Part shown: in pieces, positions 31,208 to 32,394 of the stretch | Layout of the letters: each line of letters opens with the position of its first letter | How positions within the stretch are numbered: position 1 is the stretch's first letter | Assembly (NCBI GenBank): GCA_016191145.1 | Contig: JACPPD010000001.1 | Location: forward strand, 62,001-126,000 | Direction of reading: 5' to 3' | DNA: 64,000 bases | Origin: Ignavibacteria bacterium | GTDB lineage: Bacteria > Bacteroidota > Ignavibacteria > Kapaibacteriales > Kapaibacteriaceae | Notes under the pieces: generated by a model | Seen by the model: the letters and a program-made list of their open reading frames with translations, nothing else | Told to the model about the DNA's origin: nothing | Databases searched by the model: none | Translations under genes and position numbers: made by a program

Positions 31208-31950
31208 ACGAGCAGATAACGCTCCTTGCGCAATTGGCAGCTATTGACGCTAACCTTGATGAGCTGCACGATGAACTTGGCGATCTGCCGCAGGATGTGA
31301 AAAGTCTCGAGCAAATCGTCAGACAGAAATCGGAGTTGGCAGAATCAACAAGATTACAGCTTGATGAACTTGAACATCTGAAATCAAATTCCCATATTAT
31401 GATGCAGGAGCTGCACGACAAAGAGGTTAAACTTTCCGAGCAGCAGTTTCAGGTAAAGAACAACCGCGAATTCGATGCTATCACAAAGGAAATCGACCAT
31501 GTGAAGATGGAGCGGGCAGTGCTGGATGAAAAACTTCGCACGTCTGCCGTTAAGCACGAAAACTTGTCGGCACAGCTCGAAATTCAGCAGGCGGAACTCA
31601 ATGTAGCTCGTGATAACCTTAAAGAAAAAGAACAGGAACTTGAACTCTTGACGGGTGATCATAACGAGGAACTAAAAAAGTTTATTGATCATCGTCTGAA
31701 AGTCATTGCCAAACTTGATGATTCTATCGAAGCAGAATATGAAAGAATTAGAACGTTTCACCGCGAAGCGGCTGTGTGTATTAAACGAAACTCGTGTAGT
31801 GGCTGTTTTTCTGCCATACCTTCTCAGCGGATTATGGAAATGAAATACAACAGGGATAAGATGTACACATGCGAAAACTGTGGACGCATTCTTTATACGG
31901 AGGATATTCAGGCTGGTGTCGACGCAATGGTTGAAGAAGGGAATTTGTAA
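31204..31950 (+). CDS. Coiled-coil C4-type zinc-ribbon protein (DUF164/CT398-like)
   Basis: A 248-residue protein. Residues ~1-175 form a long coiled-coil hairpin (heptads rich in Leu, Glu, Lys). The C-terminal zinc ribbon has two cysteine pairs, CSGC and CENC, separated by about 32 residues. CT398 of Chlamydia, in this family, binds sigma-54 and export proteins; whether this one does is unknown. The ATG follows TAGGATCAGC, a fair Shine-Dalgarno, and overlaps nif3 by four bases. The RNase P RNA begins at the base after its stop codon. Confidence 0.88.
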   Translation: MNEQITLLAQLAAIDANLDELHDELGDLPQDVKSLEQIVRQKSELAESTRLQLDELEHLKSNSHIMMQELHDKEVKLSEQQFQVKNNREFDAITKEIDHVKMERAVLDEKLRTSAVKHENLSAQLEIQQAELNVARDNLKEKEQELELLTGDHNEELKKFIDHRLKVIAKLDDSIEAEYERIRTFHREAAVCIKRNSCSGCFSAIPSQRIMEMKYNRDKMYTCENCGRILYTEDIQAGVDAMVEEGNL

Positions 31951-32394
31951 TCGGTCGGACGCTGAGGGACAACGGGCAACTGCGTTTCGTTGGCGACTAC
32001 GAAATGAGGAAAGTCCGAACTCCGCAGGACGACACGCTTCCTAACAGGAAGGCGGTGATGCTCCAAGGCTATGCCGAGGGACAAAGCCGACGGATAGTGC
32101 AACAGAAAGTAAACCGCCAGCACGGTTTTACCGTGCTGGCAAGGGTGAAACGGTGGGGTAAGAGCCCACCAGCGGTTCCGGTGACGGAGCCGGCTAGGTA
32201 AACCCCGTGTGGAGCAAGATCAAACAGAATTGGTGGCTTCGGCCGATTTGTTGTCCGCAGATCTCGGCAACGGGCCAGTTCGGGTAGATCGCTTGAGGTT
32301 GGTGGCAACATCAGTCCCAGATAAATAGTTGCCTCCCTTGCTTATGCAGGGAAGACAGAATTCGGCTTATAGGAGTCTTTTCGTGTCCGATCGA
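31951..32394 (+). ncRNA. rnpB: RNase P RNA (bacterial type A)
   Basis: The catalytic RNA that trims tRNA 5' leaders. The universal GAGGAAAGTCC (CR-I) is at 32006-32016, and the 3' conserved stretch GACAGAATTCGGCTTAT ends at 32370. Between them are the expected hairpins. P2 can form from GCTGA (31961-31965) and TCGGC (32362-32366). P1 can form from a 10-base run at 31951-31960 and its complement at 32385-32394, with one G-U pair. That sets the ends given here, but leaves an 18-base linker between the P2 and P1 3' strands that is normally about 4, so the 3' end is uncertain (32370-32394). It starts directly after the upstream stop and its 3' end overlaps the Hpt gene. Confidence 0.95.
32371..32375 (+). 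promoter_or_regulatory. Ribosome binding site of the Hpt gene, next to rnpB
   Basis: AGGAG directly follows the conserved GGCTTAT of RNase P RNA and lies seven bases before GTG at 32383. This spacing fixes the start of the Hpt gene. It also places the site inside, or immediately beside, the 3' end of rnpB. Confidence 0.7.

Follow-up and report, generated by a model that had tools for sequence, protein, structure and literature searches.

The P1 helix of RNase P RNA and the predicted translation start of an HPt-domain gene share bases in one family of Kapabacteria

The DNA analysed here, a stretch of 64,000 nucleotides (hereafter the window), comes from the genome of one of the Kapabacteria (Bacteroidota), and its family relatives are metagenome genomes named Candidatus Kapaibacterium, Ignavibacteria or Bacteroidetes bacterium. 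The essential, near-universal RNase P RNA has a gene that is usually treated as standing alone. In the window, rnpB is enclosed by protein-coding genes on the same strand (Table 1), and the order nif3-zinc ribbon-rnpB-hpt, with the Nif3-like gene first, is conserved among the relatives compared. The TAA stop codon of the zinc-ribbon gene (31948-31950) lies directly 5' of helix P1 of the RNA. Downstream, the gene for the VVVLPFRN protein, which in relatives that lost hpt is located directly 3' of rnpB, is followed by a lipoyl synthase gene. No terminator-like site was found on this strand between the genes; upstream of rnpB, the Bacteroidota-type promoter motif TAnnTTTG was detected in none of 22 genomes, and other -10-like words were not conserved in position among these 22. 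No relatives of the zinc-ribbon protein were found among viral contigs.

Table 1. Features of the rnpB-hpt region; positions are those of the window.
Feature	Position	Strand	Basis
Nif3-like gene	30383..31207	+	PF01784, 211 bits
C4-type zinc-ribbon protein gene, CdsZ-like	31204..31950	+	PF02591, 48.7 bits; NF047363 (CdsZ), 64.8 bits, below the NF047363 cut-off
rnpB, bacterial class A RNase P RNA including full P1	31951..32394	+	RF00010; P1 extension from relatives and fold
P1 5' strand, 20 nt	31951..31970	+	pairs with 32375-32394; covariation
Conserved GGCTTA, just 5' of P1 3' strand	32364..32369	+	sequence; RF00010 alignment
Shine-Dalgarno sequence AGGAG of HPt gene, in the joint and first P1 pair	32371..32375	+	sequence; comparison of relatives
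P1 3' strand, 20 nt, with HPt start codon and codons 2-4	32375..32394	+	pairing; covariation
GTG start codon of HPt gene	32383..32385	+	RTG kept in place in relatives
Gene for an HPt-like phosphotransfer protein of 109 aa with the motif FGHTIKGS, stop TAG 32710-32712	32383..32712	+	PF01627; family profile
VVVLPFRN protein gene, probably exported, 4 nt 3' of hpt	32717..33196	+	ORF; without Pfam family

The covariance-model check named in a preliminary description of this DNA gave a match to RF00010 at 31964-32385 over the full model length (272.4 bits against a gathering score of 100; E 8e-88), and a genome-wide search identified rnpB as a single copy. The P4 strands of class A (GAGGAAAGUCC and ACAGAA..GGCUUA) and a closing P1 are present in the RNA, and the genome carries genes for RnpA (PF00825, 37.8 bits; cut-off 22.3) and RNase III. 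Judged from its sequence, the RNA is a bacterial RNase P RNA of class A, with cleavage of pre-tRNA as its predicted activity. The Rfam model aligns P1 poorly, and the limits of this helix were taken from the comparison of relatives.

The preliminary description had proposed as P1 a 10-base strand, starting right after the zinc-ribbon stop codon, that pairs with 32385-32394 with one G-U. This pairing is seen in the sequence (TCGGTCGGAC at 31951-31960 with GTCCGATCGA at 32385-32394), but its 10 pairs are only the outer half of a helix of 20 positions with 19 pairs and one U.C mismatch, in which two further pairs (31961-31962 with 32383-32384), the mismatch and a 7-pair inner part follow inward. 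The placement of AGGAG directly after the conserved GGCTTAT was likewise correct, while what had been described as an unusual 18-base insert between the P2 and P1 3' strands turned out to comprise the joint TAGGA, five bases long, and the P1 inner half. A single T separates GGCTTA from AGGAG, and the Shine-Dalgarno sequence abuts and enters P1, so that the whole initiation region of the HPt gene is involved. The minimum-energy fold of the locus includes P1 (z -5.9). Our preferred interpretation, which we consider probable, is that P1 of rnpB doubles as a helix that hides the HPt start within a nif3-zinc ribbon-rnpB-hpt-(VVVLPFRN protein) unit.

A helix of this length might also be a processing stem, cut within P1 by RNase III to free the RNase P RNA, the HPt start being lost as a by-product; in rRNA transcripts, flanking stems are processed by RNase III. 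This tentative alternative, which is compatible with hiding of the start, is favoured by P1 lengths of about 16-30 bp across the family and by the RNase III gene, and is opposed by the bulges or mismatches in several of the P1 helices. An extra 15-base near-perfect pairing outside P1 (31929-31943 with 32399-32413, one mismatch) joins the end of the zinc-ribbon gene to HPt codons 6-11; it is confined to the window and the relative nearest to it (p 0.004 and 0/500 shuffles), where it would agree with a processing stem. Its absence from the rest of the family argues against such a stem, and the extra pairing was therefore rejected as a family trait.

The layout was compared in the 23 genomes of the window's taxonomic family. 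The hpt gene is present in 17 of them, in one copy each and always at rnpB. An RTG codon located exactly 13 nt after GGCTTA opens the HPt frame in each of the 16 HPt-bearing relatives whose P1 is readable, and also in G018, whose contig ends early and which was counted for this position apart from the 16; GGAG or a near form precedes the RTG in HPt-bearing relatives. In the other six genomes GGAG and RTG are gone and P1 is kept; hpt is absent anywhere in these genomes, and relocation of the gene was rejected. The tree of the zinc-ribbon protein places the losses on three branches (G003; G012/G014/G020/G022; G016), and its well-supported branches require three changes or more. The disappearance of RTG and GGAG after loss of hpt, with P1 retained, indicates that the RTG and the Shine-Dalgarno sequence serve translation and that P1 serves rnpB. 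Lengthening of P1 on account of HPt was rejected, since genomes without HPt have a P1 of about the same length. In G007, the HPt frame is broken after 46 codons (L037:2014-2151) with the Shine-Dalgarno sequence and the GTG in P1 intact, which may mark the beginning of gene loss or stem from faulty assembly.

As the preliminary description had asked of relatives, the HPt start stays beside rnpB, within P1, in the HPt-bearing members of the family, but in sister families of Kapabacteria it is found further 3'. At 17 sister-family loci hpt follows rnpB in the same order as in the window, but begins close to its own LPxDP motif, the ATG, where clear, lying past P1 at 31-86 nt after GGCTTA; the overlap is therefore derived. 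Among 43 further Bacteroidota loci, 17 carry the zinc-ribbon gene upstream of rnpB and thus share this neighbour with the window, but HPt was found in the rnpB flank of none of the 43, nor was GGAG plus RTG found in P1 of any. A T-rich tract follows P1 at 47 of 75 loci outside the family versus 2 of 22 inside, a contrast that is partly an effect of G+C content but persists in G+C-richer outgroups (9 of 20). As a separate observation, P1 at the loci sampled across the phylum (L161-L205) is often followed at once by the T-rich tract, as if it were the stem of a terminator. In the simplest history, the family acquired the overlap a single time and, with it, lost a likely terminator; judged from sequence comparison, the overlap of P1 with the HPt start is a family-level novelty and not a general arrangement.

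In an alternative view the overlap is passive: in a compact genome, the HPt frame was extended 5' into P1, and HPt is made from transcripts of its own that begin inside rnpB without the P1 5' strand, the bases being shared with no regulation. The sister-family starts agree with this view, as extension or deletion would create the overlap from them, and so do the independence of P1 length from the presence of HPt and the retention of P1 through all three HPt losses. Even so, the position of the RTG and the Shine-Dalgarno sequence are held in every HPt-bearing relative despite usable later in-frame starts in some, and we regard a purely passive origin as rather unlikely.

The product of the HPt gene matched PF01627 from residue 46 onward (21.9 bits, E 2e-4; curated cut-off 24.6), a profile of the family matched YPD1 (E 4.5e-4) and, weakly, the HPt domain of ArcB, and H57, K60 and G61, forming the H-x-x-K-G active-site motif, are invariant in 15 HPt sequences. 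GTG is the start codon of 15 of 16 HPt genes, versus ATG for 19 of the 20 zinc-ribbon genes compared in the family; the first base of the HPt start codon is opposite a C, with which it forms a pair in 14 of the 16 genes, and preference for GTG is expected if a G must pair with this C. In three relatives (G009, G013 and G021), the first 30 HPt codons include no start codon besides the RTG. These comparisons of sequence support the GTG as a real HPt start under a pairing constraint. That the protein begins further in, the RTG and AGGAG being merely parts of rnpB, is very improbable: the Pfam match opening only at residue 46 and the sister-family proteins, which begin about 13 residues later, would fit such a view, but indels before the shared HPt core are whole codons, three relatives offer no alternative start over their first 30 codons, and the six genomes without HPt lose RTG and GGAG yet retain P1.

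The pairing itself was examined on an ungapped P1 alignment of 16 genomes. In total, 84.5% of the cells pair (shuffles 75.5) and 12 of 21 pairs changed on both sides, with a covariation score of 0.333 that was reached by 0/500 shuffles; the covariation that the preliminary description had proposed to look for is thus found. Sliding the P1 strands by one column decreased the pairing to 43-48%. For the ten pairs formed by the RTG and the next codons, 83.1% are paired, six changed on both sides, and 0/500 shuffles reached the score, whereas sliding by one left 20-39% paired. The strands of one genome pair more strongly with each other than with swapped ones (-20.4 versus -13.1 kcal/mol; 0/20,000 permutations). 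Recoding of HPt codons 2-9 with synonymous codons weakens the mean P1 pairing (summed z -5.2, each genome being counted as independent), the codon-choice signal being weak or absent in several single genomes. The relatives are not independent, and the covariation and pairing figures therefore overstate the certainty, but the slide control and the three losses are unaffected. That two coding ends flanking rnpB are complementary by chance, a view for which only the shortness of the earlier 10-base strand could be adduced, is refuted by the covariation and cognate-pairing tests and can practically be dismissed. That the HPt start coincides with bases of the P1 3' strand, as first described, is borne out by the covarying pairing and by the start kept beside rnpB family-wide. 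At the level of sequence comparison, it is established that P1 and the HPt start have bases in common, that P1 covaries, that the GTG has a coding role and that the overlap is derived.

Helices that hide the translation start of a downstream gene are familiar from riboswitches and ribosomal-protein leaders. In the window, unlike these, the helix is part of an essential catalytic RNA and not a dedicated leader, and it has no known ligand or repressor. The preliminary description regarded rnpB embedded in a protein operon as an undescribed arrangement; this part was already known from Staphylococcus aureus, in which RNase P RNA is cotranscribed with the upstream gpsB (SA1279), cut by an unknown endonuclease and trimmed by RNase J to an end protected by P1, and in which an ORF, SA1278, lies wholly within rnpB and 'might not be translated' (PMC3937233). 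The gpsB-rnpB locus resembles the window in the ORF overlapping rnpB and in the upstream protein gene, with which rnpB of the window is predicted to share a transcript too, but lacks a conserved downstream gene starting in P1. No report of a conserved gene start inside P1 of RNase P RNA was found in the literature searched, which lay outside most subscription journals, and to this extent the earlier statement stands. What would be new is the lending of a start-hiding helix by an essential ribozyme.

Under the start-hiding interpretation, the nif3-zinc ribbon-rnpB-hpt unit would be co-transcribed, and a given transcript probably becomes either the tRNA-processing enzyme or the message for the HPt protein. 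In a transcript folded as RNase P RNA, P1 would bury the GTG and codons 2-4 and abut the Shine-Dalgarno sequence; trimming to mature RNase P RNA would then remove the HPt start from the mRNA, and HPt would be made only from molecules with an open P1. P1 folding and HPt initiation should compete for the same bases, a competition that may be used for regulation, and HPt output should fall as folding or maturation of RNase P RNA succeeds. Because the bases are shared and P1 is folded, mature RNase P RNA and HPt message would exclude each other on each molecule, provided that the mature 3' end includes P1. In predicted folds, the mean unpaired probability of the RTG is 0.06 with the P1 5' strand and 0.30 without it, while that of the Shine-Dalgarno sequence hardly differs (0.27 versus 0.29), indicating that P1 hides the start codon more than the Shine-Dalgarno sequence. 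In G011, the start codon is located in a bulge of P1, a point that speaks against hiding of the start.

A whole bacterial family thus keeps a layout in which a catalytic RNA and a protein start fall on the same bases, and the natural HPt losses reveal which bases serve which role, making this a clean natural case of dual-use RNA. It follows for annotation that the end of rnpB and the start of a gene can legitimately overlap. The predictions can be tested by reporter in any host.

A candidate for the opening of P1 would be the ribosome that terminates on the zinc-ribbon stop codon. We tentatively consider, as a possible but doubtful extension of the start-hiding interpretation, that folding and assembly of RNase P RNA act as a switch in cis, HPt being silenced when the RNA is folded or matured, and made when P1 is open, for instance by zinc-ribbon ribosomes. 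If true, an essential ribozyme would be a translational regulator of its own operon, tying tRNA-processing capacity to signalling. Positions 10-14 nt past a stop codon are within reach of the leading edge of a terminating ribosome, as known from ribosome footprints. In 13 of the 16 HPt-bearing genomes, the zinc-ribbon stop codon ends 22-26 nt 5' of P2, and the middle base of the HPt start codon has its partner 10-14 nt past this stop, which suggests that zinc-ribbon translation may open P1. The spacing is wider in G006, G008 and G013, so that opening by ribosomes should not be universal. Genomes without HPt also show a wider spacing of the stop codon (rank test p 0.007, kinship ignored).
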